Source: a virus. From it: a stretch of 57,339 nt of DNA. Under the pieces are notes generated by a model that worked only from the letters and a program-made list of their open reading frames with translations, had not been told where the DNA came from and ran no database searches. The translations under genes and the position numbers were made by a program. This document shows, in pieces, positions 8,339-52,604 of the stretch (positions are counted from its first letter, which is position 1; each line of letters begins with the position of its first letter). The stretch spans positions 1 to 57,339 of IMG/VR virus record IMGVR_UViG_3300035659_000014, one strand, 5' to 3'.

Positions 8339-8764
8339 ATGTTCTTCGCCTTCGTCGTCGCCGCGGTCCTGGTCGCGTCGCCGCAATCGAAACCGATGGA
8401 GTTCAAGGACGCCCAGATCCAGACACAGAGCGGGGACAAGACCAAGCGAGCCAGCTGCACGCTCCGCTACGAGGACGATCGACTCGTCATCGTGGTTGAC
8501 AAGAAAAAGCCGGAGAGGAACGTCACGCTCCGGTACGCAGACATCACTGCCGGAGAGTACGCCTTCGGCAAGTCGCCGCGCATCGCCGCCGCGTTGCTGC
8601 TCTCTCCGTTCTTCTTGTTTTCCAGTTCGAAAAGCCACTGGCTGACGGTGAAGACGAAGGACGACTTCGCCTTGCTGCGACTCGACAAGAGCAATTTCAA
8701 GCTGGCGATCGCCGAGCTCGAAAAACGCGCGCACATCACGGTCGCCATGCTCGGCGAACGGTGA
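8339..8764 (+). CDS. Secreted protein, putative moron
   Basis: 141 aa. Sec signal peptide (FFAFVVAAVLVASPQ), then a beta-rich domain (SCTLRYEDDRLVIVVD, NVTLRYADI), a hydrophobic patch (AALLLSPFFLFSS) and SHWLTVKTKDDFALLRLDKS, resembling bacterial PH-like/GRAM-like folds. The ribosome site is GGAAAGGAAG. It lies between the repressor and the integrase, a place where genes expressed from the prophage are common, so it may alter the lysogen's envelope. The stop overlaps the integrase GTG (GTGA). Confidence 0.65.
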   Translation: MFFAFVVAAVLVASPQSKPMEFKDAQIQTQSGDKTKRASCTLRYEDDRLVIVVDKKKPERNVTLRYADITAGEYAFGKSPRIAAALLLSPFFLFSSSKSHWLTVKTKDDFALLRLDKSNFKLAIAELEKRAHITVAMLGER

Positions 8765-9888
8765 GCGTGGGTCTGTACGCGAGAACCGATTCCCCGCACT
8801 GGTGGATGCTGCTCGAAGGCGCGCCGCCGCGTCAGAAGCGGCGCAGCACCGGCGTGCTCATCGACGCGCCAACGCCGGACCAGCGCAAGGATCAGCGCCA
8901 GCTCGCCGATCAGATCTACCACTCGGCCATGACGGATCTGGCGCGCGGCCGCGCGGGGTTCGTCCAACCGAGCGCCGGGCCGAAGTTCGCGGACTGCGCC
9001 GACTGGTACGCGAAGCACGTCATCCCGCAGCATCGCGGCGCCGAACGCGAGCGCGAACTACTGGCCACGCTGCGCGCCGGCTTCGGTCCCAGACACCTGC
9101 TCGAAATCACCGGGCAGGTTGTGGATGAATGGGCGACGACCCGGAGCGCCAAGGCCAGCTACCGCACGATCAACCGCGAGATCGATCTGCTCAAGGCCAT
9201 GCTGCGGAAGGCCGTTGAGAACGGAGAGATCACGGCCTCGCCGATCGCGGGCAGGCGGCGGTATCGCGTCCTGAAGCCGCGGCGCCGGCTGATGACCGCG
9301 CGCGAGGAAATGAAGCTGTTGGCGAAGCTAGCGCCCGACGACACGGCGATTTTCCTGCTCGCCCTCGACTCCCTGATCCGCTTCGGGGACATCCTCGATC
9401 TGCAATGGGCCGACTGGCAGGGATCGTCCGTCTACATCCGCGATCCGAAAGACCCAGTCCAGGGGGAGCCGTACGAGGTGCCGATTTCAAAGCGCGGCCA
9501 GGCGGCCCTCGAGGTCCTGCCGGTCAACGGGCCGTACCTCTTCCCGCGGCGCCGGAAGAACCGGACCGAGCATGATCGGCGGAAGGCGTACCGCCAGCGG
9601 CTCGCGCGCGCATGCAAGCAGGCCGGCATCCCGTACGGCCGGACCGCGGGCGGCCTCACGTTCCATTGGGCGACCAGGCGCACCGGTGCCACGCGGATGA
9701 TCCAGGCGGGCATCGACCCGGCCACCGTGCAGGCGGTCGGACACTGGCAGAGCCCGGCTGTCGTGCTCGGAATCTACGCGGAGGGCAACCGCCGGACAGC
9801 GCGCCGAGCGGTCGAAATCCCGGGCGGCCAATCACGCCGGAGAACACAGCCCAAAAAAGGCGTCAGAAATAGCCGAAAACGTCGATAG
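8761..9888 (+). CDS. int: Tyrosine recombinase (integrase)
   Basis: 375 aa. An N-terminal arm/core-binding region leads to a C-terminal catalytic domain with the set R207 (SLIRFGD), K244 (PISKRGQ), H302-x3-R306 (FHWATRR), H328 (VGHWQ) and nucleophile Y339 (GIYAEG). It catalyses integration and excision at attP/attB. GTG start overlaps the preceding stop. The stop lies only 3 bp before the tRNA-derived att sequence, the usual arrangement for tRNA-targeting phages. Confidence 0.95.
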   Translation: MSVGLYARTDSPHWWMLLEGAPPRQKRRSTGVLIDAPTPDQRKDQRQLADQIYHSAMTDLARGRAGFVQPSAGPKFADCADWYAKHVIPQHRGAERERELLATLRAGFGPRHLLEITGQVVDEWATTRSAKASYRTINREIDLLKAMLRKAVENGEITASPIAGRRRYRVLKPRRRLMTAREEMKLLAKLAPDDTAIFLLALDSLIRFGDILDLQWADWQGSSVYIRDPKDPVQGEPYEVPISKRGQAALEVLPVNGPYLFPRRRKNRTEHDRRKAYRQRLARACKQAGIPYGRTAGGLTFHWATRRTGATRMIQAGIDPATVQAVGHWQSPAVVLGIYAEGNRRTARRAVEIPGGQSRRRTQPKKGVRNSRKRR

Positions 9889-23523: not shown

Positions 23524-25156
23524 TGGTCACTCCTGGAGTCACTTTGCAAACGCACCACGTCGCAGAGGCCGGCGCCGAGACGGTCAATTCGACGGCCGTG
23601 TCCACTGTCTCGCTCACCGGCGTCGTCGTCGTGCCCGAAATCAAGGCGCCCGTGAGTAGGTTGTAGATCCCGAGCGTCACCGAGACGGCGCTGTGTAGCG
23701 ACCGTACGATACCGAGCAGGGTGAAGAGGTGCCCGGCGTGCGCCGTGCCGCCCCAGCGGAAGGGCCGCGCCTGCTGCAGCTCGTAGTAGGTTGCCGCCGT
23801 CCCGATGATCGGATCGCGCCGTGACCCGCCCAGATCGATCGTCGCGAACCCGACGCCACCGGAAGTCGGCACCGCGCCGCCACCGATCACCGTCGTCACC
23901 CCGCTGCCGCCGCCCAGAGACTTCGCCAAATCGCGCCATGAACCTTGGTAGATGGTCCCGAGGATCCCGGAGCCTTCGTAGCGCAGACGTTCGATATTGG
24001 CTTCCTGGAACGTCTGGACTTCGGTGAGTAGATAGGTGCCGTTCACGCCACGACGCGCGCAAACGATCGCTTGGCTCTTGCCCGGCGCCAGCCCCGCGGT
24101 CTTTGTTCCATAGAAGAATTCGTCCGTGTCGATCTGCCGCTGCGCGCGGTACGCATCGGCGAGGGCCTGCGCGCGGACGCGCTCGAACACGGTTGGTTCC
24201 TCGAGCGGGATCTCGACGGCGGCGCCGCTGCCGACCGAGACGACCGTGCCAGGGAAGGCGCCGGTGTAATTCGTGTAGATGCTCTCGGCGCCGCCGATGA
24301 GCGTCTGATCGCTACGTTGGTACAACGAATTGTCCGACGCCCGGTAGGCCCAGGCCGTGCTCGTATCCGGATAGATGCAGACCGGGTGATAGACCGGCCC
24401 CGGGACCGTCACGATGTTCGGCACGGTCGCCGCTGGTACATCTAGGGCAAAGATGCGCGTGACCCCATTGCCCGCGTGGGCCTCATTGTCGATCCAGCGC
24501 TGTCCCTGGCCGAATCGGAGGATGACGGTGTTCGCGTAGTTCGTGCGACTCTTTCGGCGCCGCGGCTCGCCCTGAATGTGGCCGTCCCCCTCCGCGATTG
24601 ACCAGGCTGGCGCGCCGGTGCCCGGCTTGAAGACTTGCAGCTCATCAGTCGGCGCGATGCGCCAGACCAGGTTTCCGAGCAGCGCGCAGAGTTCATTTAA
24701 CACTTCGGTGAGCTGCCGGTAGTCGTACGGGAGCGCGGGGAGTGTGCCGGTCGCCCCAATGACCGCCGTGAACCAGATCCCGTCTGCTGCGAGGTAGGTC
24801 GTCACCAGATCGGTGACGACCGTGTCAGGATCGGCAGCCGCGGCGTACGTCTTCAACACGAACCGCTCGTCGCACCGTCGCGCCATGCCGCGCGCGTCGA
24901 TCTGGATTGAGAGGATGTTCTTTCGGCCGCTTTCTTCTGGCGAGACCACGGCGCCATGGAAGATCGGGGTGCCGATGGGGTTCTCGACGAGCACGTCGTC
25001 ATCGATCGCGGGCCGGTAGCCGCCGATCGCGTGCATGTCGCGGAAAGTCAAGGAGAGGGTCGAAGCGCTACAAAGCGGATCCCGGATGCGCAGGGAGCCC
25101 TTCCGCGCCCAGTGGGTCTTGTCGAGCGACGTGGCCATCGTGATGACGAGGGCCAT
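23480..25156 (-). CDS. Tail hub / tip attachment protein
   Basis: 558 aa. It begins with a Dit-like strand region (LRIRDPLCSASTLSLTFRD), then a hub/Tal-like domain (AVVSPEESGRKNILSIQIDA, VLNELCALLGNLVWRIA) and a C-terminal carbohydrate-binding-like domain (VSVTLGIYNLLTGALISGT). It follows the tape measure gene directly, the canonical position of distal tail and baseplate hub proteins in siphophages. Confidence 0.75.
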   Translation of the reverse strand: MALVITMATSLDKTHWARKGSLRIRDPLCSASTLSLTFRDMHAIGGYRPAIDDDVLVENPIGTPIFHGAVVSPEESGRKNILSIQIDARGMARRCDERFVLKTYAAAADPDTVVTDLVTTYLAADGIWFTAVIGATGTLPALPYDYRQLTEVLNELCALLGNLVWRIAPTDELQVFKPGTGAPAWSIAEGDGHIQGEPRRRKSRTNYANTVILRFGQGQRWIDNEAHAGNGVTRIFALDVPAATVPNIVTVPGPVYHPVCIYPDTSTAWAYRASDNSLYQRSDQTLIGGAESIYTNYTGAFPGTVVSVGSGAAVEIPLEEPTVFERVRAQALADAYRAQRQIDTDEFFYGTKTAGLAPGKSQAIVCARRGVNGTYLLTEVQTFQEANIERLRYEGSGILGTIYQGSWRDLAKSLGGGSGVTTVIGGGAVPTSGGVGFATIDLGGSRRDPIIGTAATYYELQQARPFRWGGTAHAGHLFTLLGIVRSLHSAVSVTLGIYNLLTGALISGTTTTPVSETVDTAVELTVSAPASATWCVCKVTPGVTNEPIWATAYLGLTR

Positions 25157-28100
25157 CAGCCCGACCTTCCCGCAATGGCCGTCTTAACCTCTTGCAGATT
25201 TTCGAGCAGGACTTCGACGAGGACACGTTCGTTGATGGTGACGATGCGCACCGGCAGGTTCACCGAGCCGCCGCCGAACGACCCGCCCGCGTTCAGGCGA
25301 TCGAGCCCCGCCCGCCCGAGCGTCCGCATCCCGCGATGGTTGACGACGCCTTCGTACGGCAGCGCCCAGATCGGGACTTGCCCGCCTGCGTGGAATTGCT
25401 GCGCACCGGCCCAGACGCCGGGGACATAGGCACCGCCGTGACGAGTGATCCAGGGTTCGACCACGCCGCCGGAGTGGTATTCGCGTTCCGCGCCTTCCTC
25501 GATCCAGGGTGGGGCCGCCGCGGTCCCGGTCGGCGCCCGGGTCGCGATCTGATAAAGCAGCTCGCCCATATACTCCGTGGCGGCAGCCGTCCGGTCCGTA
25601 GCGCTGGCCGTGCGATTGGCCGCGTCCATCTGGGCCTCTCCGATGATGCCGGCGGCCTCGGCTTCCGCGAGCAAACGCTTCGTGCCTTCATCGAGCGTGT
25701 ACTCGGGGTGCCGTTGCTGCAGCATCCAGAGGGTCTGCAACGTCGGCTGCATGACAGCCAACGCCTCTGCCTCCGAAAGCCCGGGCTTCCCTTCAAGTCC
25801 CACCATGCCCCTGAATTGGCCGGTAGCTGTCGCAGCCAGATCCTGGAACGTGGCTTGTGTCATCAGGCCGTAGTTGGCAGTCCCGACCGCGAGATTGTTC
25901 AGGGCCGTGACGGCGCCGGCCTGTTCCGGATTCGCCCTTGCCCAGTCGGAGATATGAACGAGCGACCCGAAGGCACCTTCGGCCGTCCAGTGGAACTGCT
26001 CGGCCGCCTTGGCAAGATCGTCGAAGCCCGGAGCGAGGTCCGTCAGGGCTTCAAGCAGTGACTTGCCCGCTGCGCGTTCGAGGTTGAACGTGGCCACCAT
26101 CAGCCGACCGGCGCGCGCGTACGCCTCGGGGCCTTCGGCGCCCAACGCGGCAATTCTCGCCTCGGCCCGCGCCCGTTCTTCCCGTTTGGCCGCGAGATCC
26201 GCCGTCACCTTGGCCGCGTCTTTCTCAGCCTGCATGCGCCGATCAACAGCAATGGCGTACGATTGCTCGGCGCTCTCGGCAGCTTCGGCCGTCCCCGTCC
26301 GGTAGTCGCGCTCGGACCGGGCCTTCTCGGCGGCAATCTTGGCCTTCTCCTCTGCCTGCCGCAGTCCATCGACGCCGATGGCCCCCAGGTCCGTCTGCAC
26401 GACGTAACCTTCCAGCGTCCGGGCCCCGCTGGCCTGGGCGTCGGTCAGATCGCGAATGGCGTCGGCGGCCGCCTTCGCCAGGTCGATCTCCTTCGCGAGC
26501 GCTGCGATCGGCACCACGGCGGCAGCCAGTGCGTTCGCCCCACTGACGGCGAGACCTCGCTGTTTTTCGAGGAAGTCCGTCACCGCCTTCACTTCGAGGC
26601 CGGCGTCCTTCGTACCCCGAATGAAATTGAGCAGATCCTGCGTGACGAGTCCGCCCTTGTCCGTCGCCGCCATCAGGCGGTCGGTGAAGGCGGCCAATGT
26701 CTCCGCGAACAACTTCGCCGTGTCCTGGAGGCCCTTCAGGCCCGCCGTACCCGGGCCACCCGTGCCACCCAGAGTGAACGCCGCCGGCAGATCCACGCCG
26801 AGAATTTTCGCCCAGCGATCGATTTCGGCCAGCGATCCGTACGTGCTGACCAGACTCGCCTTGAGCTGGTCGAACGACGTGTTCGCGTCGAGTTCCTTGA
26901 GCTTCCATTGGGCGTAGGTGACCGTCGTGTCGAGCCGCTTCTTGAGCTCTTCCGCGTACGGATCGACGTGCTTGAAGAGACCATAGAGGAAGCCGACGCC
27001 CGCGCCAATGATCGTGCCGTAGGGCACATTCACCTCGGATCCGATGGCGGCACCAGTCGCCGCCCCGCTCAGGGCGTTCTTCCAGCGCGACGTCGAAGAC
27101 GTGGCCTGTTCCATCGCCGCTGCCATCTGCAAGACCGAAACGGTCAGTGTCGCAATCCCCTGTGCGGTCCCGATCGCCCCGTCTTCCATGCCGTAGAGCG
27201 TCTCGCCGAAGGTCCTCGTGGCCTTGGCGCCCAGAACCATCGACGAGATCGTCATCCCGAGCCATCGCGCCATGTCGGACATCGATCCACCCGAAACCTG
27301 CGCCAACTGCTGGAAGGCCGCAGCGATCCCGTCGAGGTCCGCGAGGAAACCTTTCACCCACATGCCACGCGCGGACTGCTCGGCGTCGTACCACTGCTGC
27401 CAAGCCGCGCGCAGTTGTTCCGCGGTGTACGTGCCCTTTGCGCGCATCGCTTCGAAATCTTGTCGGGCGATCTGCGCAGTCTTGTCGAGTTCGGTTTGCG
27501 TGAAGATGCCCTGCGCGCGCAGCCGTTCTTCGACGGTGTCGGCCGTGCTGTTGGCCAGATCGATCTGGTGTTGGTAATAGGCCGTGAGCTCGGCCGTCGT
27601 CATCCGGGCGAGTTCGGAATCGGCCCCGAACCGGCGCTTGGCGGCATCGATGTCCGCGTCCCGTGCGCGGGTGATCTGCGCGACTTGGAGGTCCGCGCCG
27701 TGTAGGGCTAGGTCTGCGTTCTTATCGTGGAATTCCTTGTAGGTCGTCAGTTGTTCGAGAACCTGCGCGTTTGTCGCCGCCTGCTGTTTCTTCGCGATTT
27801 CTTCCCAGAGCGCGGTCGTCTTCACGTGCAGATCGGCGACGGACTTCGCCCAGAGGTCGTCAACCGCGTTACGTTCTGCCGCCGCCGTGCTGTAACTGCG
27901 GATCGCGCCTTCGCCGATGTGAAGCAGGAGGGCGATTTGCCCCTCTGCCAGGCCGCGCTTCTGGTAGTACTGAATGTCGATTTCCTGCTGCGCACTGAGC
28001 GGGATCTGGGCTGCGGTCGCCGCCTTGACCGCCTCCGCGTACTGCTTCTGTTTCTGGGCGGCTTCGTCGAGGATCTTGAGGTAGGCCACGACTGAAGCGA

Positions 28101-29304
28101 GCGCCAACTTGCGGTCGTTGGCGATCTGCTGGTCGGCCAACCCCTGCTCGTGCGCGAGCCGCACGTACAACTGTTGGTCGGCAGTCAACGGCACCAGGGC
28201 AGCGTGTCCCTGCTGCCATGTCGTGATCTGGTTCCGCCAACCCTGGGCATCAGTCGTGAGCGTCTGCGCCACCTCGGTGTTGGCTACCGCGAGATTCTTC
28301 TGGCCGGAGATAAGGGCGACCGTTTCCCGCGTCCGGGCTTGCAACCCGGCAATCTCCCCGGCCAGCACTTTTGCCCGCATCTCGTCTGTGGCCGTTGACG
28401 CCGCCGGAACCGGCTCGGTAGCGGGTCGTCGAAACCCCCAGCCAACCCGACCAGTGAGTAAGTCTGCCGCTGGCAGGACCGTGTCGGGGTGCAGCACGCG
28501 CAGCCAGAAGCCTGCTCCCTCGACAGCGCCAGTCTTAAGCCAGCCGACCAGGATGCTGAATTGCTCGCCCACTTCGTGGACACGGGCGATCGAGTCCTCC
28601 GAAGCGATCAACCCTGTCTCTCGGGCAAACTCACGCGCCTCCGGCACACCGCGATTGATGAGGGCCATGAGTTGCTGGACGCCGCGGCCGTAGAGATCGG
28701 TGCCGAGACGTGCCTTCGTCCCCTCGGAGTCAACATGCCTGAGTGCTTCAGCGGTCTGCTCGAAGACCTGGTCAGGGCTCAGCCCGCGCAGTCGTTCGGT
28801 GCTCAACCCGAGGAAGTCCAAGGCGGCCCTGGTCGCGACGTCCCCTTCTGCGATTCGGCGCGAGAGTTGGAACACGCCCTGCGCCATCGTCTCCATGTCG
28901 ATGCCGACACTTTTGCCCGCGACGCCGAGCTCCTGCACGGCCGTGGTCGACATGCCACTGGCGAGCGCAATGTCGTGGACCCGTTCCGCGTAATCGATCA
29001 GATGCTTGATGGCCTGGACAACCCCGGCGAGCGACAGCGCCACGCCGAACGCCCCCGCCAGCCGCGTCACGACACTCATGGTGCCGCCGAGCTTCTGCGC
29101 CGTGGCGTCGAGATTCGTGGTGTGCTTGCCCGCTTGCTGCGCCGCTTGGCCGCTGGTCTGAATCGCACGGCCGTACTGGTCAACGAGCCCGCTGGCGCGG
29201 GTCGCGGTCTGGCCGGTCTTGTCGATCTCTTTGTCGAGCGTACGGAAGGCGGTGGTCGCCTTGCCCGTATCGACATCGACGACGATCGTGAGTTGTCGGG
29301 CCAT
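25156..29304 (-). CDS. Tail tape measure protein
   Basis: 1382 aa from ATG 29304 (MARQLTIVVDVDTGKATTAF); an ATG at 29316 is too close to the GAGGG site. Long helical N-terminal part, hydrophobic mid-segments (VVTRLAGAFGVALSLAGVV; ATGAAIGSEVNVPYGTIIGAG), Ala/Glu/Lys coils and a Gly-rich C-terminus. At about 0.15 nm per residue this predicts a tail near 200 nm. Largest gene of the genome, between chaperones and hub. Confidence 0.9.
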   Translation of the reverse strand: MARQLTIVVDVDTGKATTAFRTLDKEIDKTGQTATRASGLVDQYGRAIQTSGQAAQQAGKHTTNLDATAQKLGGTMSVVTRLAGAFGVALSLAGVVQAIKHLIDYAERVHDIALASGMSTTAVQELGVAGKSVGIDMETMAQGVFQLSRRIAEGDVATRAALDFLGLSTERLRGLSPDQVFEQTAEALRHVDSEGTKARLGTDLYGRGVQQLMALINRGVPEAREFARETGLIASEDSIARVHEVGEQFSILVGWLKTGAVEGAGFWLRVLHPDTVLPAADLLTGRVGWGFRRPATEPVPAASTATDEMRAKVLAGEIAGLQARTRETVALISGQKNLAVANTEVAQTLTTDAQGWRNQITTWQQGHAALVPLTADQQLYVRLAHEQGLADQQIANDRKLALASVVAYLKILDEAAQKQKQYAEAVKAATAAQIPLSAQQEIDIQYYQKRGLAEGQIALLLHIGEGAIRSYSTAAAERNAVDDLWAKSVADLHVKTTALWEEIAKKQQAATNAQVLEQLTTYKEFHDKNADLALHGADLQVAQITRARDADIDAAKRRFGADSELARMTTAELTAYYQHQIDLANSTADTVEERLRAQGIFTQTELDKTAQIARQDFEAMRAKGTYTAEQLRAAWQQWYDAEQSARGMWVKGFLADLDGIAAAFQQLAQVSGGSMSDMARWLGMTISSMVLGAKATRTFGETLYGMEDGAIGTAQGIATLTVSVLQMAAAMEQATSSTSRWKNALSGAATGAAIGSEVNVPYGTIIGAGVGFLYGLFKHVDPYAEELKKRLDTTVTYAQWKLKELDANTSFDQLKASLVSTYGSLAEIDRWAKILGVDLPAAFTLGGTGGPGTAGLKGLQDTAKLFAETLAAFTDRLMAATDKGGLVTQDLLNFIRGTKDAGLEVKAVTDFLEKQRGLAVSGANALAAAVVPIAALAKEIDLAKAAADAIRDLTDAQASGARTLEGYVVQTDLGAIGVDGLRQAEEKAKIAAEKARSERDYRTGTAEAAESAEQSYAIAVDRRMQAEKDAAKVTADLAAKREERARAEARIAALGAEGPEAYARAGRLMVATFNLERAAGKSLLEALTDLAPGFDDLAKAAEQFHWTAEGAFGSLVHISDWARANPEQAGAVTALNNLAVGTANYGLMTQATFQDLAATATGQFRGMVGLEGKPGLSEAEALAVMQPTLQTLWMLQQRHPEYTLDEGTKRLLAEAEAAGIIGEAQMDAANRTASATDRTAAATEYMGELLYQIATRAPTGTAAAPPWIEEGAEREYHSGGVVEPWITRHGGAYVPGVWAGAQQFHAGGQVPIWALPYEGVVNHRGMRTLGRAGLDRLNAGGSFGGGSVNLPVRIVTINERVLVEVLLENLQEVKTAIAGRSG

Positions 29305-29319
29305 CGGCGGTTCCATCCC

Positions 29320-30115: not shown

Positions 30116-30191
30116 TGGTAGCGGGCGCAGGAATTGAACCTGCCGTAAGACGGGTATGAGCCGTCCATGTCCACCAGTTCATCTGCCCGCG
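30116..30191 (-). tRNA. tRNA-Met (anticodon CAT)
   Basis: 76 nt including encoded CCA. Anticodon arm GACGG-CTCATAC-CCGTC, variable loop TTACG, T arm GCAGG-TTCAATT-CCTGC, acceptor CGCGGGC with GCCCGCT: six pairs plus a C1-U72 mismatch, A73. A 1:72 mismatch is a hallmark of initiator tRNA, but the anticodon stem lacks three consecutive G-C pairs and position 8 is not U. It lies between tail tube and chaperone on the late strand. It could also be a CAU-Ile tRNA after lysidine modification. Confidence 0.8.
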
Positions 30192-30197
30192 GTTGCC

Positions 30198-31256
30198 CTA
30201 GAACGCGATCAGCGAGTTCGTCATGATGCGCGTCAGGCGCATCGGCCGCAGGAACGTCATGTTCGTCGGCGTCGTCGCGGCGAGGTACGCCTTGAAGGTC
30301 GCCTTCGGCTTGACCTGGGCCGCGCCCGCCTGTGCCGCATCGAAGGCCGTCAGGATCAAGCACGGGAACTCGTACAGCTTCATGTACTGATCCGCGCTGT
30401 TGATGTTGGCGCCCTTGAACGTGAGGTCGCCCTTCCATGCTTGACTTGCCTGCAGCCCGATATACAGGCTGTTCGCTGTGACGGTGTTCATGCGCGGGTA
30501 GGTGACATCGACGCTGATGCCCAGGAACCCGTTGTCGGCCGGTTCATCGATGACCTCCTGGCCGCTCACGCTCGGCTTGTCCATGACCCGAGCGAGGGCC
30601 AGCTTCAGCGTCTCGTACTTCACCCCCGAGGCCGGGACCAGCGAGGTGCCCACCTGCGGGTTCATGCGAAACGTGGCGTGCTTCCGGAAGATGCGATTGG
30701 TCTGCGCGAGGAACACGGCGCCGCCAATCGTCGAGTTGATGTTGACGCTCGAGGTCACGGTCGGGCGCGTGCCGAGCACCTTGTAACTCGTCAGGATCCG
30801 CCCGCCGTCGCCGTCACCTTCCTCGAATCCGTAGACCTTCGCGGAGGTGAGCTCCTCGACGAAGTAGAGCTTGTCCTGCGCGAGCGTGATGCCGAGGCCA
30901 TCGATCACGTCGGCCAGGTCGATCACGTGCTTCCACGAGGTTACCTGCGATCCGACGCTTGACGAGATCGTGACAGCGTTCGGCGAACCCATCGCAAGCG
31001 CGTCGAAGATGAACAGGTTGTCGTCGTACCGCGCCTGCGCCGACAGCACGAGATCCGGCGGCTCGTAGTCGCCGACTTCCGGCTGGCCCAGGAACGACTG
31101 CCCGAAGGCGTCGTCTTCGACCATCTTGGGCTGGAGCTTCAACCCGCCGTCGGAGGAAAAGAACACCCCCATGGTGACGCTGGCGGGCACGTTCCAGGAG
31201 TTCGTGGCGTACTTCGCAAACGCCATCTTCACGCTTTTCCCGGTGAGTCCAATCAT
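30198..31256 (-). CDS. Major tail tube protein
   Basis: 352 aa. Beta-rich (SWNVPASVTMGVFFSSDGG; PTVTSSVNINSTIGGAVFLA; GFLGISVDVTYPRMNTVTA) with PEVGDYEPPDLVLSAQARYD. Size, position before the chaperones and tape measure, and composition fit a tail tube subunit; I cannot name a family. Confidence 0.7.
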   Translation of the reverse strand: MIGLTGKSVKMAFAKYATNSWNVPASVTMGVFFSSDGGLKLQPKMVEDDAFGQSFLGQPEVGDYEPPDLVLSAQARYDDNLFIFDALAMGSPNAVTISSSVGSQVTSWKHVIDLADVIDGLGITLAQDKLYFVEELTSAKVYGFEEGDGDGGRILTSYKVLGTRPTVTSSVNINSTIGGAVFLAQTNRIFRKHATFRMNPQVGTSLVPASGVKYETLKLALARVMDKPSVSGQEVIDEPADNGFLGISVDVTYPRMNTVTANSLYIGLQASQAWKGDLTFKGANINSADQYMKLYEFPCLILTAFDAAQAGAAQVKPKATFKAYLAATTPTNMTFLRPMRLTRIMTNSLIAF

Positions 31257-31268
31257 GAGCGGCCCCCT

Positions 31269-31685
31269 TCAGGCCTGCGCCTCATAGTCGACCGGCAGGG
31301 TGAGGCGCAAGACCGAGAACGCCCTGCCCGGCTCATGGTTGAGGGTGAAGCCGCGCCCTTCGTCGGGCACGTCGTAGTCCCCGACCACCCCGTCCCGAAT
31401 GACGGCCGCGCTGATCGAGGCACAGTCGGTGAGCAACTTCTGATAGCAGACCTCCGGGTCGCCCTGCTGCAAACGCGCCACCTCGACGTGCAAGAGATCC
31501 ACGTGCGTTTCTGAGTAGTTGCTGCCGCCGCTGACGTGGCCCGCTTCGGCCCCGATATGGAATAAACCATCGATGATCGTGAGCGGGTCGCGGTCGAAGT
31601 CGATCGGGTTGGCCGAGCGCGTCAGCGAGTACGGTGACGCGGCCAGAATCGACGTCACGCGAGTGCGAATCGTGTCGAGCACCAT
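31269..31685 (-). CDS. Tail terminator/completion protein
   Basis: 138 aa from ATG 31685, which overlaps the upstream stop (TGATG). MVLDTIRTRVTSILAASPY, then HVDLLHVEVARLQQ and a beta-strand end (FSVLRLTLPVDYEA). Placed between the head-tail connector and the tail tube, where tail terminators normally lie. No motif-level identification. Confidence 0.6.
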   Translation of the reverse strand: MVLDTIRTRVTSILAASPYSLTRSANPIDFDRDPLTIIDGLFHIGAEAGHVSGGSNYSETHVDLLHVEVARLQQGDPEVCYQKLLTDCASISAAVIRDGVVGDYDVPDEGRGFTLNHEPGRAFSVLRLTLPVDYEAQA

Positions 31686-32545
31686 CAGGCACGCTCCAAT
31701 CGCCACCCACCGCCGACCTGTTCGCTCGTCTGGTCAGCCTCGGCGGAGGAAATCTGCTCGGATTCGTCGGTATCGAACTCGCCGCCGATCAACGGCAGCA
31801 CGCGCTCCAGGGCGAGCCCCGCTTCCTTGCCGTAGTAGTCGGCCTTGTCCTGCCAGGGCCCATCCGCGCCGGTCGGGGCCTCGGCCATGATGAGGTGTAG
31901 GGTCCGCAGGGCGGCCGCCGCCCGCAACAGGGAGGCCCGCAGCACGGCCATCTGGCCGGCCTTGGCGCCCGCAGGCGAGGCGTTCGCGGTGACCTTGACC
32001 CAGTACCGGCCTACCGAGCCGTTGACCGCCCGGGGGCTCCAGTCGGCCGGCAGGGCCCATGTCACGGCGCCCCCACCGGAGAGGGTCTTCCCCGTCGCCA
32101 CGATCGTCCCGTCCATGATTGTCAGGGCCTTCCACGCACCGCTCCAGTACGCCACGGCGAGCGTGGCGGTCGAGGTCGAAACGGCATCGGCCAGCCGGCA
32201 GAACAGCCCGCGGAAGGGTTCCTGCGAGCCGACGTAGAGCGCGTCGGTCGCCGGTGTCGTGATGATGGTCGCAAGATCGAGGTCGTCCTCGGTCTGGCTG
32301 GAGGCCGCCGCGGTGTAATCGCCGTACACGCCAGCGGTGCAACCGAACACCTGGTCGGCTTCGAACCGGGTCCGGAGGCGTTGAGGCGCGAAGCCGTTCG
32401 CCCGCAGGACCGGGTAGAGCCAGTCTTCGAGCGCCTTGGTGCGCTTGGCAAGCCAGGTCGTCTGGCCGAACTTCGTCAGGATGGTGGACTCGTAATCGAC
32501 GAGATCCTGATCGGAGACGAGGTCGTTCGGGTGCCAGCTACTCAT
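31685..32545 (-). CDS. Head-tail connector (adaptor) protein
   Basis: 286 aa. The N-terminus (PNDLVSDQDLVDYESTIL; KALEDWLYPVLRANG) and C-terminus (LLRAAAALRTLHLIMAEA) look like a gp6/gp15-type helical connector, split by a beta-rich insertion (TLAVAYWSGAWKALTIMDG, VNGSVGRYWVKVTANA) that could be a virion-surface Ig-like or carbohydrate-binding domain. Site TGAGGA 11 nt before ATG. Confidence 0.6.
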   Translation of the reverse strand: MSSWHPNDLVSDQDLVDYESTILTKFGQTTWLAKRTKALEDWLYPVLRANGFAPQRLRTRFEADQVFGCTAGVYGDYTAAASSQTEDDLDLATIITTPATDALYVGSQEPFRGLFCRLADAVSTSTATLAVAYWSGAWKALTIMDGTIVATGKTLSGGGAVTWALPADWSPRAVNGSVGRYWVKVTANASPAGAKAGQMAVLRASLLRAAAALRTLHLIMAEAPTGADGPWQDKADYYGKEAGLALERVLPLIGGEFDTDESEQISSAEADQTSEQVGGGWRLERA

Positions 32546-32563: not shown

Positions 32564-32773
32564 GTGATGACCGACGAAGACCGCGTCCTGCCGTTTCTAC
32601 CGCGGCCGCCAAGATCACGCGACATCATCGTTGTCGAACAACCGCACTCACCGACGCATCCCGTAATCGTGCGCGCGATCATCCCCTCCCCAAGTGAAAT
32701 ACCCGCCGACATCGTACCGTTCCCGCCTCGGGATCACGGCACGCCTCCGGACTCCTCGAACGGATCAACATGA
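32564..32773 (+). CDS. Orphan Pro-rich ORF, possibly leaderless
   Basis: 69 aa (GTG 32564 or ATG 32567), MTDEDRVLPFLPRPP, then IIVVEQPHSPTHPVIVRAII. It occupies the only gap between two minus-strand head genes. A perfect TATAAT at 32551-32556 ends exactly 7 nt before the GTG, so a leaderless transcript is possible; no good -35. It overlaps the convergent glycosyltransferase by 40 bp. Tentative. Confidence 0.4.
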   Translation: MMTDEDRVLPFLPRPPRSRDIIVVEQPHSPTHPVIVRAIIPSPSEIPADIVPFPPRDHGTPPDSSNGST

Positions 32774-35748
32774 ATCGACTCGCCCTCGATCTGCTTGCAG
32801 ACCTGGGCGACCTCATGATCGACGAATCGCTTCAGTTCGACCCCATCCCGCACCCAGATCCGTTTCGGTTTCGCGTGCCCGCCGTCCATGCCGCCATGCT
32901 TGCCACCGAGGGCGAGTTCGATCTCCAAGCCGCCGAGTTCCTTCACCGCTCGCTCGTACCAGGGCCGCGCGATGCCGTGATACTTGTCGGCCGGGTCCGC
33001 GAAGTGCCGCTCGAAGAGTTGAATCGCCGTGTGGTAGTACGCCTGCGCCGTCGCCGTCATGGCGCCGTTGACCGACTCGCGGTCATAGTCGGCCAGGTTG
33101 ATCAGGTCGCGCAGCACCAGCACGCCGCCCAGCCGGCGTTCGGGGAACGCCTTCCGGTCCTTCTGGAGGAGCGGCAGGTTGCGCTTCAGCATCTTCTCGC
33201 GGCGGATGCCTTCGTGCAGATACCCGAGGTGCGCGATCGCCACGTCGTGGATTTCGAGGCCCGGATGAATGTCCGTGTTCGCGTCCTGCCAGCCGGGTTG
33301 CTCGTGCACGCAGCCGAAGAACCGGATCTCGGGGACGCGCCGGAAGATCCGGATCGGGGTATCGGCGTGCATCGGTGCATCGAGCATCAGGTGGTTCTGC
33401 CGCACCGCATAACCCTTGAAGATCCCGCCTTCGAGGTACTTGCCGAGCGCGCCCGATCCCGCGAGGAATTCATCCGTGTCGATCCAGAAGAACCACTCGC
33501 CCGTACACGTCGCGAGCACCCGGTTGCGCGCACCGGCAAAGCCTTCGTCCTGATCCGCGATTGACCCGAGGCGCAGGATCCGCGCCCCGTAGCGTTCGGC
33601 AATTGCGATCGTGTCATCGGTCGAGCCGGTATCGCCCAGGACGATCTCATCGGCGATCGCCCAGATACTATCGAGACAGCGCGCCAGATCGAGCCCGGCG
33701 TTGCGCGCGATAAGGCCCACCGAGAGACGGGGCATCGGGCGGGTCGTCAGGATGCGCTGCTCGACGTCGCGCGGGCGAGCCGGACGGCCTTCCGCCTTGC
33801 GGTAGCGGATCATCCAGTGCCCGGACGCATTCCCCCGGTTCGTCGGGCCGACGTGCAGATAATCAACTGACACGTCCCGTTTCGCCCCGAAGACCTCGTG
33901 CAAATCGCCCCAGCCGAAATGATGCACGTGCCCGCGGAGGAGTGGGATCGTGCGGGGCAGGAGTTCGACGAACGGGCCGTGTGGAACGGTGTAGAGGATG
34001 ACGGCGCCATCAGCGACGAACTGTTCGAGATGGTCGATCGCCTTGTCGCAGGCCGCGACGTGTTCGAGGAACTCGCCGACGAACATCCCGTCGACCAATT
34101 CGATTCCGGCCGCGTCGGGACCGAGCGGCAGCGCCCAGCCGAGGTGACTGTCTGTCGGCGGGGCCTGGCGCTCGAAGTCCCAGACCGACAACTGTTCGAA
34201 GCGGACGCGGTCCGCGAGTCCGAGTTTCTCCGCCATCGCCCGAGCGCGCACCACGTTCGCCTCGCTGTAATCGACGCCGACGACTCGAATCTCGGGATAC
34301 TTCTGCGCGAGCAACAGCGCGAACGACCCATTCCCGCACGCCACATCGAGGACATCCTTGCAGCCAGCGAAGTGCGGCAGGACGATCCCCATGCGCCCGC
34401 GTGTGCCCTCGTTCTCCATCTCGACTTCGACGTCCTTGACTGCTCGCTCGCCGTAGTCCTCGGGGCCCTGCTCCTCGCCGGCAATCACGCGGCGGCAGAG
34501 TTCGTCTGCGAAGTAGGCTTCGCCAACTTGGTCAGGCGTCGCGCACTGCAATCCCTGCGCAAGGATGCCTCCGGCGAGCTGCTTCGCCGCAACACAATCG
34601 TCCTCGTGCAGCAGTTGTCGCAACACGCCGATTTTGTTCGCCTTGAACCGCGCCCGGAACGTCTCTTGGAGCCAGCCGTCCCATTCAGTGGCCAGAACCT
34701 CGAATGTGTAGGCTCGCGCATGCTCGCGGCCTTCCCGTTGCGCATCGCGGTAATCCCGTGACTGACGCGCGCACCCATCCAGCGCCTCGCAGACCGCGTC
34801 GAGCGACTGCGCTTGGTAATCGGGAGATTCGGCATCGCCATGAATGAGCGCCCCGCTCGGGACCGTCTCGGGCAGCGCGCCTTTGAAGGAGCCGACGAAC
34901 GGCGTCCCGCACCCCTGCGATTCCGCCGCCGCAATGCAACCCGTCTCCGCGAAATCCTTGACGCCCGGATACCACATCACGGCGGATTCGGCGATCGCCC
35001 GATAGAGATCGGGCTTGTTCAATTCGCCGAGATAGGCGATGCCGCCGACCTGGTCGTTGACACGCTGCACCTCCGCGTCGAATTGCGCGCAAATCTGGCC
35101 CCAGCCCTGCATGTCGTACATCGAGCTGTAGCGGCAAATCTGGAGCGTTGTCGCCGGATGCCGCGCACGCAGGCGCGGCCACATCGCAAGCAATGGGCCC
35201 AGGCCCCGCTCGGGCCGGCTGATATGGATGATCCGGTTCGGATCTTTCGTGACGTTCGTCGGGACCAGCGACGGATCGAACCCGTTGCGCGTCACGTAAG
35301 CCAAGCCCTTGAGTTCCGGCAACCGCTCTTCGTACTGCTGCCGCTGATACTCGGACACATAGACCATGCGATCGACCGCCCACATGATCGACATGAGGGC
35401 GGGCGGCACCATGAGCAGATCCTGGTTCCACAGCAGGCGCAACTTCGCCGGGATCCGGTGCGCGCCGAAGATCGGGAACATCCGCAGCACGCAGAACACG
35501 TCCCAATCCGTGAAGTTCGAGATTTCGACGATGCCCTCGGCCGGTTGCCACCGTACGCCGGCCTGGTCGGGACCGTAGCAGTCGGGATCGAGCTTGGTCG
35601 CCAGGATCTGGACGTCGTGGCCCTTCGCCTTCAGCGCGCGCGCCAGGCCCAGACAGGCAGACTCCGACCCACCCAGCGAGCAGGCGCCACTGAGGACGTC
35701 CGGGGTGATCGGAACCGAATCGACGTAGAAACCGATCGTGAGTCGCAT
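32734..35748 (-). CDS. Three-domain glycosyltransferase-methyltransferase-glycosyltransferase
   Basis: 1004 aa from ATG 35748 (MRLTIGFYVDS). Residues about 1-375: GT-B fold glycosyltransferase (GGSESACLGLARALKAKGHD; HISRPERGLGPLLAMWP; ETGCIAAAESQGCGTPFVGS). About 420-650: SAM methyltransferase (KDVLDVACGNGSFALLLAQK, VVGVDYSEANVV). About 670-960: GT-A/GT2 domain (LSVGLIARNAG, GDTGSTDDT, FWIDTDEF with the DxD-like site) and helical tail. It probably builds or caps a methylated glycan on a virion protein or the host envelope. Located between connector and capsid genes. Confidence 0.85.
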   Translation of the reverse strand: MRLTIGFYVDSVPITPDVLSGACSLGGSESACLGLARALKAKGHDVQILATKLDPDCYGPDQAGVRWQPAEGIVEISNFTDWDVFCVLRMFPIFGAHRIPAKLRLLWNQDLLMVPPALMSIMWAVDRMVYVSEYQRQQYEERLPELKGLAYVTRNGFDPSLVPTNVTKDPNRIIHISRPERGLGPLLAMWPRLRARHPATTLQICRYSSMYDMQGWGQICAQFDAEVQRVNDQVGGIAYLGELNKPDLYRAIAESAVMWYPGVKDFAETGCIAAAESQGCGTPFVGSFKGALPETVPSGALIHGDAESPDYQAQSLDAVCEALDGCARQSRDYRDAQREGREHARAYTFEVLATEWDGWLQETFRARFKANKIGVLRQLLHEDDCVAAKQLAGGILAQGLQCATPDQVGEAYFADELCRRVIAGEEQGPEDYGERAVKDVEVEMENEGTRGRMGIVLPHFAGCKDVLDVACGNGSFALLLAQKYPEIRVVGVDYSEANVVRARAMAEKLGLADRVRFEQLSVWDFERQAPPTDSHLGWALPLGPDAAGIELVDGMFVGEFLEHVAACDKAIDHLEQFVADGAVILYTVPHGPFVELLPRTIPLLRGHVHHFGWGDLHEVFGAKRDVSVDYLHVGPTNRGNASGHWMIRYRKAEGRPARPRDVEQRILTTRPMPRLSVGLIARNAGLDLARCLDSIWAIADEIVLGDTGSTDDTIAIAERYGARILRLGSIADQDEGFAGARNRVLATCTGEWFFWIDTDEFLAGSGALGKYLEGGIFKGYAVRQNHLMLDAPMHADTPIRIFRRVPEIRFFGCVHEQPGWQDANTDIHPGLEIHDVAIAHLGYLHEGIRREKMLKRNLPLLQKDRKAFPERRLGGVLVLRDLINLADYDRESVNGAMTATAQAYYHTAIQLFERHFADPADKYHGIARPWYERAVKELGGLEIELALGGKHGGMDGGHAKPKRIWVRDGVELKRFVDHEVAQVCKQIEGESIHVDPFEESGGVP

Positions 35749-35835: not shown

Positions 35836-36123
35836 TTAGGCCGAGTGCGGCGTCTTCCCCTTCGCGGACGCCCGCGCCTCTTTCGCGTCGCTTCTCGCCT
35901 CGGCCAGTGCAGCCTCGAGTTCTTCGATCTGCGCCGTCAATCCCGCGATCTCCGCGGCGTACTGTTTTTTCGACTGCTCGCTTTCCGCAACCAGCCGATC
36001 CCGTTCGTCGAGTCGCGGGTTGATCTCATCGCGGAAGACGCGCTGCATCCGCCGGAACGTCTCCGGCCGGAAATTGCCCAACGAGTTGATCCGGCAGAAT
36101 TCATCGATCGCCGGGTGTCCCAT
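35836..36123 (-). CDS. Small coiled-coil head-region protein
   Basis: 95 aa, MGHPAIDEFCRINSLGNFRPE, then a coil (QIEELEAALAEARSDAKEA). Excellent site AGGAGGATCTT. Between capsid and glycosyltransferase; a head-decoration or neck accessory role is possible. Confidence 0.65.
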   Translation of the reverse strand: MGHPAIDEFCRINSLGNFRPETFRRMQRVFRDEINPRLDERDRLVAESEQSKKQYAAEIAGLTAQIEELEAALAEARSDAKEARASAKGKTPHSA

Positions 36124-36207: not shown

Positions 36208-37359
36208 TCACACGCGCAAACGCGCCACCGCATCGGCATGATGCAACTCGACCGTGTACTCGCCGACAACCATGCCCTTGCGGTTGTCGCCGCTCTTGCC
36301 CATTTCCTGATAGACGAAGTTGCGGCCCTGGAGCGGCAACACGCGAATCCGCTCCCGCGGCACGAGGATCAGTTCGGTCGCCGCGAGTGACCGGCTCAGG
36401 AAGACCGTGCTCTGTCCGAACGGCCCCTCGTAGACGCGCACGATGCGCTTGAAGAGTTCACTCGCATTCGTGTCCTGGACCTTCGTGTCGTTCATGTCCG
36501 AGATGTTCCGGAAGAATGTCCGGCCCGCAATGATCCCCCAGGTCTCCGACACCGAGGCGCCCGCCTGGTAGCACTGCTCCCAGATGTCCCCGAGGTAGAG
36601 ATGGGGATTCGCCGCGAACGACGACGCGGCGATCGCCGAGTTGATCGCCGTGACCTGCCCGCGCAGGCCCAGCATCGTCCGAGTTACCGTGGAGGTGCCG
36701 AGGCTGTTCGCCGCGTTCAGCACGCCCCGCACGACTTCGGCCTCGAGGATGCCGGGGATTTCGCGGAAGACTTTCGCGCGGGCTTCCTCATACCCGTCTC
36801 CGCCGAGCGCCGGGACCGCGATCGCCGTGCCGGACGCCGCGATTTCGATCGAGAAGTACCCGACCGTGTTCGCCTTGCGGTTGCCGAGCCGGGCGGTGTG
36901 CATGCCCGAGTGCTCGTGCCCTTCCTCGGCCGCCGGCCACCGCACGAAGAGCGATCCGCCCACGGCGAGTGAGCCGACCGCGCCGGCGGCGCCGTCGTAA
37001 TTTCGGGAGCAGAGAATCGAATTCGCGCCTGGAATGCTGGTGATCTGCATCACCTCCGGGCAGGCCGACTCGTTCTCGAGCAGCGTCCCGACCGTCAGGG
37101 CCAGACCGAGGCCGTTGATCGTGACTCCGGTAGCGGTGGCGACGCTGTTGACGGCCGTGCTCACGATGATGTAGCGCGGTCGCAGGAAATCCTCGATGTA
37201 CTCATGCTTGGGCGACGTGGCGACGTACCCGCTCGGATCGCCCAGCCAGTCGAGGAACGGCGCTTCGTACGGCGCCAGGGTGCTGATGATCCTCGAGATG
37301 TCTTCACCCTGCGTGTTCGCCGTGAATGCTTTGTTGGTGCTCAGTCCACTGAAAGCCAT
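36208..37359 (-). CDS. Major capsid protein, SU10/DUF5309-like
   Basis: 383 aa. GEDISRIISTLAPYEAPFLDW, HEYIEDFLRPRYIIVSTAV and FVYQEMGKSGDNRKGMVVGE are typical of SU10-type HK97-fold capsid proteins, which lack a long cleaved delta domain. Preceded by a scaffold gene. Site GGGAGCACACC. This gives the head lineage of the phage. Confidence 0.85.
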   Translation of the reverse strand: MAFSGLSTNKAFTANTQGEDISRIISTLAPYEAPFLDWLGDPSGYVATSPKHEYIEDFLRPRYIIVSTAVNSVATATGVTINGLGLALTVGTLLENESACPEVMQITSIPGANSILCSRNYDGAAGAVGSLAVGGSLFVRWPAAEEGHEHSGMHTARLGNRKANTVGYFSIEIAASGTAIAVPALGGDGYEEARAKVFREIPGILEAEVVRGVLNAANSLGTSTVTRTMLGLRGQVTAINSAIAASSFAANPHLYLGDIWEQCYQAGASVSETWGIIAGRTFFRNISDMNDTKVQDTNASELFKRIVRVYEGPFGQSTVFLSRSLAATELILVPRERIRVLPLQGRNFVYQEMGKSGDNRKGMVVGEYTVELHHADAVARLRV

Positions 37360-48247: not shown

Positions 48248-48632
48248 GCGCTCCCCTCCGCCGCGAGACGTGATACCGGCAACGCCGGGGCGACTGGCAC
48301 ACGATCCGCTGGCCCCGGGCATTGACCCGACGTACCTGGCACGCATCCCGCTGGAATGTTCTGCCACACGCTGCGCACGTCACGGTGACGAGCACCGTCT
48401 CGGGCATCTTCCTCCGCTGGTACAACCGCGGTGCTGATCGCCCATCGCCGGTGCGCTGCTCGCCGATCATGGCGACCCCCCTGGGGTTGCTCGGCATCTC
48501 GGGCGTGCAAAGATCGCCGGCTGAGCACACGATGTCTACCTCGTGCAGATCCCGCAGGATGAGCGCCCGGCAGTATGGCTGGGCCTCGGATTCGGAGTAC
48601 AGGGCGGAGTAGTCGTAAGTCATGAGTGCCAT
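48234..48632 (-). CDS. Zinc-finger hypothetical protein
   Basis: 132 aa from ATG 48632. MALMTYDYSALYSESEAQPY, then VTCAACGRTFQRDACQVRRV...CQSPRRC, a Cys-rich DNA-binding-like C-terminus. Unknown; overlaps both neighbours slightly. Confidence 0.6.
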   Translation of the reverse strand: MALMTYDYSALYSESEAQPYCRALILRDLHEVDIVCSAGDLCTPEMPSNPRGVAMIGEQRTGDGRSAPRLYQRRKMPETVLVTVTCAACGRTFQRDACQVRRVNARGQRIVCQSPRRCRYHVSRRRGAHESP

Positions 48633-49489
48633 TCTCGTACCCTCAGATCCGCCGGCCATTCAGTCGGATCCGCCCCCTTGCCCGTAATCGTTCTGAAAAT
48701 TCTGTCGCGCTCGGCGATGCCATCACGGACGGGGTTTGCCCCAAGTTGTTTTACGTACACTGACACGCCCGCCGCTTGGCACTGCTGGATGATGCTGCGA
48801 ATCCAAGCCGTGTCGCAAGGCCGCGCCTTTGGGCCCGATTCACCTCCAACGATCACGCCGTCGAGATGTTCATTCGGAACTTGGACTGGCACGACGTCGC
48901 CGTGTCGATCGCGCTCGCCCTCGCAATGCCACCCCCGAAGCCAGCCAGAAGACGAATGAACATCGCCGTCAAGATCCACCGGTTCAAGTAGCGGCTCGAG
49001 ACTTGCGATGCGCTTCGCCGCCGGCGTCTCGAGTAGCAGCGGCACGAACAGGTTGGCATCCGCCTGCGTCGAACAGGACACGCCGAGCGTCAGATTTCTG
49101 GGCATCGGAAACGCCGAGGTCCATATCTCTGCAAACCCGCGCGCCCGTCCCGGCCGCTTCGTCAAAACGATGTATTCGTGTTGCGGCGCCGACGTGCTGA
49201 TGGTCACGAAGACATCGTTGACGAACGCGAACGGCACGTCCTCGTGAAACAAATCGCCCATACTGCACACCAAGACGCGCCGCGGCTTTCTCCAGCCGCA
49301 GGGCAGAGCGAGCCGATCCATGTGCAGCACGATCTCCGAAAAGTCGCGGCCCTTCCACGATCCCATGCCGCGACGCGCGAAGGCCCGGGCGTAGCAGTGC
49401 TTGCAGCCCTCGGCAACCGGCGTACACCCATTCACCGGGTTCCAACTCGCCCCACCGTCCAGCCATTCGATCGCGCTCTTGTCGCTCAT
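48620..49489 (-). CDS. DUF5131 / phage Gp37-Gp68 family protein
   Basis: 289 aa. SAIEWLDGGASWNPVNGCTPVAEGCKHCYA is the family signature with the C-x7-C-x2-C-like cluster; VLVCSMGDLFHEDVP, GVSCSTQADANLFVP and VIVGGESGPKARPCD follow. Probably a radical-SAM-like or iron-sulfur protein acting on nucleic acid; substrate unknown. Site GGGGAGGGGAC. Confidence 0.85.
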   Translation of the reverse strand: MSDKSAIEWLDGGASWNPVNGCTPVAEGCKHCYARAFARRGMGSWKGRDFSEIVLHMDRLALPCGWRKPRRVLVCSMGDLFHEDVPFAFVNDVFVTISTSAPQHEYIVLTKRPGRARGFAEIWTSAFPMPRNLTLGVSCSTQADANLFVPLLLETPAAKRIASLEPLLEPVDLDGDVHSSSGWLRGWHCEGERDRHGDVVPVQVPNEHLDGVIVGGESGPKARPCDTAWIRSIIQQCQAAGVSVYVKQLGANPVRDGIAERDRIFRTITGKGADPTEWPADLRVREWHS

Positions 49490-51860: not shown

Positions 51861-52604
51861 CTACACAAAGCAGTACCCGCTATCACACAACCCCGTGAAC
51901 AGGTCTGGTTCATCGTCGCCTGTCCAGTCCCGCAACGGGACGCGCCTTCTTGTCAGCCACAGATCGTCGTCTTGTTCGCGGATCGCATCTTCAAGTTGTG
52001 CAGCCCGCTTAAAGTCGGTTGGATAGTCGTGCTGAAGTGCTGTCCACTCTGCCACCGTATGGTTTGGACACATCCAACAGCTTGATCGTGGCGGGTCGGG
52101 CCAACCCATCGAGTTGACCAGCGTCACACAGTCACGGCGTGTCATTCGCTTTTCGATGAGTGGATACCAGTTCTGCCACTTTCCGTCTTCGGGCTTCACG
52201 CGGCGGGACTCGTCAAGGCTGATGCCGATCCAGATCCGAAACTGCGTCGCCGGGTACTGTTCATTTGCCCACCGCTGCAAGACGCGCCGTTTCCACTTAT
52301 CGGAACAGAACGTCGGCAACTTCCCCGTACCTGTGAACGCCGGGATAAGTAGATCGCCGTTGCCTGCGTAGAGATCCACCGTCGCATACTGACTTTTGGG
52401 TATCCGATGGAGTGTCACGCCGACAGACGCCAGCGCGGGGACGATAACCACGTTGTGGTACTCCCAGGTGGCTGACGCCTCCCGTTCGGTGTCCACGATG
52501 GCTGCCAAGTCTGACTTGGGTAGATCGCCGCGCACGATTAGGGCGGCAATCGCCGCGCTCTGCGTACCGCCCCCCGAGGACCAGACTTGAACACGCTCAC
52601 TCAT
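51861..52604 (-). CDS. PAPS reductase-like PP-loop protein
   Basis: 247 aa. VQVWSSGGGTQSAAIAALIV (PP-loop SGGxxS), then TFCSDKWKRRVLQRW, IGISLDESRRVKP and SSCWMCPNHTVAEW. Phage members of the adenine nucleotide alpha-hydrolase superfamily are thought to act in sulfur or nucleotide metabolism or nucleic-acid modification; the exact reaction is unknown. ATGA-coupled to the acidic peptide upstream. Confidence 0.85.
   Translation of the reverse strand: MSERVQVWSSGGGTQSAAIAALIVRGDLPKSDLAAIVDTEREASATWEYHNVVIVPALASVGVTLHRIPKSQYATVDLYAGNGDLLIPAFTGTGKLPTFCSDKWKRRVLQRWANEQYPATQFRIWIGISLDESRRVKPEDGKWQNWYPLIEKRMTRRDCVTLVNSMGWPDPPRSSCWMCPNHTVAEWTALQHDYPTDFKRAAQLEDAIREQDDDLWLTRRRVPLRDWTGDDEPDLFTGLCDSGYCFV

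Follow-up and report, generated by a model that had tools for sequence, protein, structure and literature searches.

A glycosyltransferase-methyltransferase-glycosyltransferase fusion inherited with the capsid module of uncultivated phages and its proposed role in virion glycosylation

A three-domain fusion gene next to the capsid gene

The stretch of DNA analyzed here (the window) is a virus record of 57,339 bases. Its open reading frame at 32734-35748, on the minus strand, encodes 1004 amino acids followed by a stop codon, exactly at the coordinates proposed in the earlier note. The supported start is the ATG at 35748, a position shared by the homologues, where the start often overlaps the stop codon of a small upstream gene. 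A longer version beginning at a TTG (35820) is unlikely because the homologues start where this ATG lies, and a chance fusion or an assembly artefact was ruled out by the full-length homologues found in independent contigs. The genes around the fusion and its predicted domains and motifs are listed below.

36208..37359, minus strand: SU10-type major capsid protein, candidate acceptor (PF17236, SU10_MCP, 130 bits vs. 24.1)
35836..36123, minus strand: small helical/coiled-coil protein of 95 aa, just upstream of the fusion, which it precedes in most loci
32734..35748, minus strand: GT-B/methyltransferase/GT-A fusion protein (open reading frame, domain matches, homologous start positions)
34639..35748, minus strand: GT4-type GT-B domain, aa 1-370, with a GGSE loop at aa 26-29 and SRPERG at aa 177-182 (profiles, conservation)
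34921..34947, minus strand: EX7E motif of the GT-B domain, E268...E276 (invariant, 47/47)
34384..34638, minus strand: variable linker between GT-B and methyltransferase, aa 371-455 (median pairwise identity 0.36, length 44-97 aa)
33784..34383, minus strand: class I SAM methyltransferase domain, aa 456-655 (profile matches)
34327..34347, minus strand: SAM-binding motif I, D468-V-A-C-G-N-G474 (conservation, alignment of 47)
33139..33747, minus strand: GT2-type GT-A domain, GmaR/SunS-like, aa 668-870 (profile matches)
33469..33480, minus strand: DxDE motif, D757-T-D759-E760, predicted to bind metal and nucleotide sugar (conserved, 47/47)
33295..33306, minus strand: HEQP motif of the GT-A domain, H815-E816-Q817-P818 (aligned with GmaR and SunS)
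32737..33138, minus strand: C-terminal region, aa 871-1004, the least conserved part of the fusion
31685..32545, minus strand: protein in head-tail connector position (position and conservation only)
31269..31706, minus strand: conserved protein in tail-terminator position (position only)
30198..31256, minus strand: conserved 352-aa protein in tail-tube position, alternative acceptor (position only)
25156..29316, minus strand: long protein in tape-measure position of a siphophage-like tail (position and length)

The folds of the three domains were assigned from sequence profiles. With hmmscan, the fusion matched Methyltransf_31 (aa 465-584, E 4e-13, 49.7 bits vs. a cut-off of 27) and Glycos_transf_2 (aa 676-763, E 2e-13, 51 bits vs. 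a cut-off of 23.3). The GT4-type matches of the fusion alone, at aa 26-68 and 174-303, were weak (23.8 and 21.3 bits) and fell below the Pfam curated cut-offs. In its relatives, Glycos_transf_1 scored 50.5, 48.2, and 59.0 bits vs. a cut-off of 26.4, which was exceeded in L151, L152, L154, and L155, and a PDB profile search with the GT4 domain retrieved solved GT4 enzymes (6tvp, E 6e-9; 3okc, E 5e-5). The GT-B call is secured by the scores of these relatives, the PDB profile matches, and the invariant EX7E motif. The two glycosyltransferase folds and the SAM methyltransferase that the earlier note had read in one protein are confirmed at the level of sequence profiles, the predicted order being GT-B (GT4-type), SAM methyltransferase (class I), and GT-A (GT2-type). 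The C-terminal region would be helical and might consist of degenerate TPRs, a reading based on its sequence pattern, on the GT2-TPR layout of GmaR (PMC9638930), and on a TPR-like stretch in L241 (a locus of MW202524, see below).

The gene had been described as lying between capsid and connector genes. The capsid neighbor was verified, its product carrying an SU10_MCP domain that places it in the SU10-type phage capsid group, with scaffold-position, portal, and terminase genes further upstream; the connector is named by its position, the protein at 31685-32545 having no family match in the domain scan. Identification of the 30198-31256 protein as a tail tube likewise comes from its position; comparisons by sequence, by profile, and with the PDB linked it to no known tube. 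A few bases after that gene, within the late structural operon, lies a tRNA-Met gene (CAT; 30116-30191, minus strand); none was found in 19 related loci.

The glycosyltransferase active sites are invariant

Residue conservation was counted in an alignment of 47 fusion proteins. Both glutamates of the GT4 EX7E motif (E268 and E276) and each of the GT2 residues D757, D759, and E760 are present in 47/47, and an RN pair is likewise invariant. H815 and E816 of the GT-A domain are each kept in 46/47. In the methyltransferase, D468 and G472 of motif I are found in 46/47 and 43/47, respectively, and D493, the acidic residue after beta 2, in 46/47.

The methyltransferase site is kept in most of the 47 proteins and is clearly decayed in L152 and L154. 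In the latter (genome G010), a methyltransferase-domain gene, a glycosyltransferase, a GT9, and a further methyltransferase adjoin the fusion that has lost its SAM motif (L154:7741-14000, minus strand), as if methylation had moved to neighboring genes. It looks as if the family could replace the fused methyltransferase but could not do without the glycosyltransferase domains, as would fit methylation being a finishing step.

One family member (L212:7935-11816) carries an intein-like insertion of ~290 aa inside the GT-B EX7E motif, at about aa 290-578 of the protein; the insertion contains an HNH-type stretch (HVHHKDKNPKNNNPDNLEIMC) and ends with VVHN-C.

The fusion is widespread in uncultivated phages

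IMG/VR searches with the fusion and the capsid protein returned relatives at 35-61% identity and beyond, and a deep-alignment search (A10) found that at least 388 stretches encode relatives of the fusion, all counts from this collection being lower bounds. The best 80 of the 388 stretches were analyzed, and the rest may include single-domain matches. All three domains were present in 58/58 non-redundant loci newly drawn from these 80.

A SU10-type capsid gene lies within 3 kb upstream of the fusion in 13 of the 58 loci, so that the search for the same fusion beside SU10-like capsid genes, suggested in the earlier note, was strongly positive. In 23 others, a cap_E-like capsid gene occupies the same ≤3 kb interval; the capsid assignment in this group is drawn from 31-33% similarity to annotated major capsid proteins and from a weak match to the protein of genome G009 that Pfam places in Phage_cap_E. 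Of the remaining loci, 4 have a capsid gene elsewhere in the stretch, 12 have none recognized, and 6 are too short; as contigs may be fragments, absences count for little as evidence. Since SU10-type and cap_E-like genes never share a locus (0/58), the fusion accompanies at least two distinct capsid families.

Among 50,697 deposited phage records, none (0/50,697) covers most of the fusion; in the deposited phage records, the window capsid protein has one weak match only, and the window portal has matches at only 21-26%. The sole genome match in the collection scan was a 38-kb contig of a Xanthobacteraceae metagenome-assembled genome (MAG). The fusion was not found in 390 other genomes of that family, and one distant match occurred among 385 genomes of the same class. 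The gene had been called unusual: this holds for the deposited phage records, from which the architecture is missing, but not for uncultivated phage lineages, of which it is a widespread, conserved core gene. What is new here is the architecture of the fusion, its conservation, and its spread, phage-encoded virion glycosylation being already known.

The fusion is inherited with the head module

Mapping the window genes onto the IMG/VR relatives gave a conserved order: TerL, portal, scaffold, capsid, small protein, fusion, connector, terminator, tube-position protein, and tape measure. In every contig that extends far enough downstream of a closely related capsid gene, the fusion directly follows that gene. 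The median gap is 215 bases between capsid gene and fusion (38 loci) and 1291 bases between fusion and tube candidate (30 loci).

Pairwise identities of the fusion correlate with those of the capsid protein (Spearman 0.84, 32 contigs) and also with those of the portal (0.77), the connector (0.73), and the tube candidate (0.73); the correlation with the tape measure is much lower (0.35). In the same contigs, the fusion is more conserved (median identity 0.46) than the portal (0.41). It is thus inherited with the head module and is a core gene of the group. That it is a moron or cargo gene was ruled out, because its identities track those of the head-module genes and its place is conserved.

In most loci, the gene before the fusion encodes a small helical protein of 60-100 aa whose tail is coiled-coil or basic, and its stop codon usually overlaps the fusion start. 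In one locus (L025:8845-9319), this gene is present in two tandem copies.

A re-wired version follows a SU10-like capsid gene in other phages

MW202524, MW202718, and MW202743 are near-identical complete genomes from the Manatee Spring metagenome, deposited in part as Podoviridae. In these genomes, a SU10-like capsid gene is followed by a 165-aa open reading frame, a GT2-TPR-GT4 protein, further glycosyltransferase genes, and two methyltransferase genes. The GT2-TPR-GT4 protein (761 aa; locus L241 in MW202524) matches the GT2 profile at its N-terminus and the GT4 profile at its C-terminus, with a TPR-like stretch between them. As in the window, the GT2 and GT4 domains of the family are fused and encoded after a SU10-like capsid gene, with methyltransferase genes nearby; unlike in the window, the domain order is reversed, the methyltransferases are separate, and further glycosyltransferases are present. 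The occurrence of the same activities either as a fusion or as neighbors argues for one pathway.

Inside this glycosyltransferase/methyltransferase cluster lies a gene for a 598-aa repeat-rich protein of the GNNITLSQ type (L241:8340-10136). It is perhaps a fibre, and it could be a glycan acceptor in MW202524.

Comparison with known enzymes

The GT2 profile was searched against the PDB and matched GmaR (E 4e-31), SunS (4e-22), and the ThuS-like 7msk (1e-19), while the next enzyme, chondroitin synthase, followed at E 3e-8. The closest solved relatives of the predicted GT2 domain therefore appear to be protein glycosyltransferases, although relatives that have not been solved and are closer than GmaR or SunS could use other acceptors. 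GmaR puts GlcNAc on flagellin (PMC9638930), SunS glycosylates Cys of peptides directly, and ThuS does so on Cys and Ser (PMC6405829). The GT2 domain of the fusion shares with these best solved relatives the DxD and HE motifs, and GmaR also carries TPRs after its GT domain (PMC9638930). However, GmaR, SunS, and ThuS have a single GT domain with neither a GT-B nor a methyltransferase domain, and the fusion scores 45.7 bits against the SunS equivalog TIGR04195, far below the cut-off of 350; it is related to that family and not a member of it.

Proteins combining two glycosyltransferases and a methyltransferase have precedents. A064R of the chlorovirus PBCV-1 is a rhamnosyltransferase-rhamnosyltransferase-methyltransferase of 638 aa (PMC9614988). 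Like the fusion, it joins two GT domains and a SAM methyltransferase in one viral chain, and it builds and methylates the end of a glycan on a major capsid protein (PMC9614988). It also differs, as it belongs to an algal virus, acts on a pre-formed N-glycan, and follows the order GT-GT-MT, whereas the window fusion is GT-MT-GT (PMC9614988). The solved domain 1 of A064R was absent from the PDB sequence matches of the fusion, which may work like A064R with no detected sequence relation and does not belong to the A064R family. WsaE of Geobacillus stearothermophilus comprises a methyltransferase and two rhamnosyltransferases (PMC2943079). It is likewise trifunctional (GT/GT/MT), and its methyltransferase step caps a glycan that is destined for a protein; however, it serves a bacterial S-layer pathway on a lipid carrier, has its methyltransferase at the N-terminus, and is not from a phage (PMC2943079).

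Among phages, capsid and tail-tube glycans of Mycobacterium phages (Che8 and relatives; Freeman 2023) are attributed to phage-encoded glycosyltransferases (as cited in PMC12619734 and PMC11256854), and the glycans sit on the C-termini of capsid and tail-tube proteins (Freeman 2023, as cited in PMC12619734). In Mycobacterium phage Maravista, by contrast with the window, the glycosyltransferase genes lie near the 3′ end of the genome (PMC11256854). The fusion has no sequence match to Mycobacterium phage records at E 1e-5.

Proposed function and its alternatives

We propose that the fusion is, with reasonable probability, a soluble cytoplasmic enzyme with three activities that glycosylates a virion protein during assembly by priming, extending, and methyl-capping a short glycan. 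The GT-A domain (GT2, GmaR/SunS-like, DxD) would put a first sugar unit from a host nucleotide sugar on a Ser, Thr, or Cys of a virion protein; the GT-B domain (GT4, EX7E, expected to be retaining) would add a further sugar; and the methyltransferase would cap the glycan with a methyl group (O-methyl) from SAM. This order of GT2 priming, GT4 extension, and methyl capping is suggested by the likeness of the GT2 domain to direct protein glycosyltransferases. As enzymes of the GmaR/SunS/ThuS type need no lipid carrier, such a mechanism would suit a phage protein expressed with the capsid. The earlier suggestion that the virion could carry a methylated glycan holds up in this form, with putative sugars and a candidate acceptor, and the glycan might shield or tune the virion surface.

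The most likely acceptor would be the capsid protein or another protein of the head or head-tail module, the main alternative being the tail tube. No Ser/Thr-rich acceptor tail was seen on the window capsid protein, nor any convincing candidate among the window proteins, and linkage to structural genes speaks for timing and selection, not for the identity of the acceptor. We regard as unlikely, but deserving serious consideration, that the same chemistry acts on the tail tube (candidate 30198-31256) or a head-tail connector protein. In G008, G009, G010, and G011, the fusion lies near tail genes, with the next long open reading frame 1.3-2.3 kb downstream: it is 7.6 (G008) and about 23 kb (G011) from the capsid gene and about 2 kb before a long tape-measure open reading frame in two of them, it is followed at about 250 bases by a Phage_tube_2 gene in G009, and it precedes the tail genes in G010, where the capsid is of a different family. 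Tail-tube subunits are also glycosylated in Mycobacterium phages (PMC12619734). Against this, the fusion is near the capsid gene in nearly all loci, with a shorter median distance to that gene (215 bases) than to the tube candidate (1291 bases); in G005, it lies 2 kb from the capsid gene but 8.6 kb from the tube; and homologous domains directly follow the capsid gene in MW202524, a deposited podovirus in which a tail tube is not expected. If phages of this type have no long tail, as their deposited class implies, the tail tube would not be the general acceptor. With evidence pointing both ways, the capsid or another head protein is modestly favored over the tail. A dedicated role of the small helical protein (35836-36123), as the acceptor or as an adaptor bringing the substrate to the fusion, appears improbable. 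In favor of such a role, most loci have its gene directly upstream, as a rule with its stop codon overlapping the fusion start, and SunS recognizes a helical segment of its small substrate (PMC6405829); yet the sequence of the small protein is weakly conserved, the Cys is not always present, and the protein was not recognized in some members. It may simply be a head gene in its usual place.

Targets other than the virion were also weighed. The window carries an integrase gene (8761-9888, plus strand; phrog_1, E 9e-37), which suggests that the phage is temperate, and in some temperate phages glycosyltransferase and methyltransferase genes serve host-surface modification. A role in serotype conversion or superinfection exclusion through host surface glycans, which the earlier note had offered as an alternative, is nevertheless less supported and, in our view, has little chance of being correct: the fusion has been passed on vertically with the late structural genes among which it lies, protein-modifying enzymes are the nearest relatives of its GT2 domain, and no membrane-anchored partner enzyme was recognized among the window proteins scanned. 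Glycosylation of hypermodified bases in phage DNA is very improbable; phage glycosyltransferases are known to act on DNA (discussed in PMC12619734), but no thymidylate-synthase-like or hydroxymethylase gene that could make an acceptor base was recognized among the ~37 window proteins scanned, and the late structural position and the protein-modifying GT2 relatives again argue against it.

Possible virion glycosylation outside culture collections

Apart from a few documented cases, phage virions are generally regarded as lacking glycans. The conservation of a three-domain enzyme beside the capsid gene across many environmental phages suggests that virions bearing methylated sugars could be frequent among phages that are not in culture, in which case virion glycans would bear on phage adsorption, stability, and recognition. 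More tentatively, and with somewhat less than even confidence, a single-chain glycan line for protein priming, extension, and capping might be indispensable for virions in large uncultivated lineages with unrelated capsids, so that methylated virion glycosylation would be a common, unrecognized trait of environmental phages. The fusion family also provides ready single-polypeptide enzymes for assays, possibly usable for glycosylating proteins in bacteria.

Other genes of the window

Elsewhere in the window, the product of the gene at 48623-49489 (minus strand) is a DUF5131 protein that strongly matches phrog_2045. PAPS-reductase-like genes (phrog_424) are found at 51864-52604 (minus strand) of the window and at L161:963-3158 (minus strand), and the G010 copy has an additional match to a LAGLIDADG domain.
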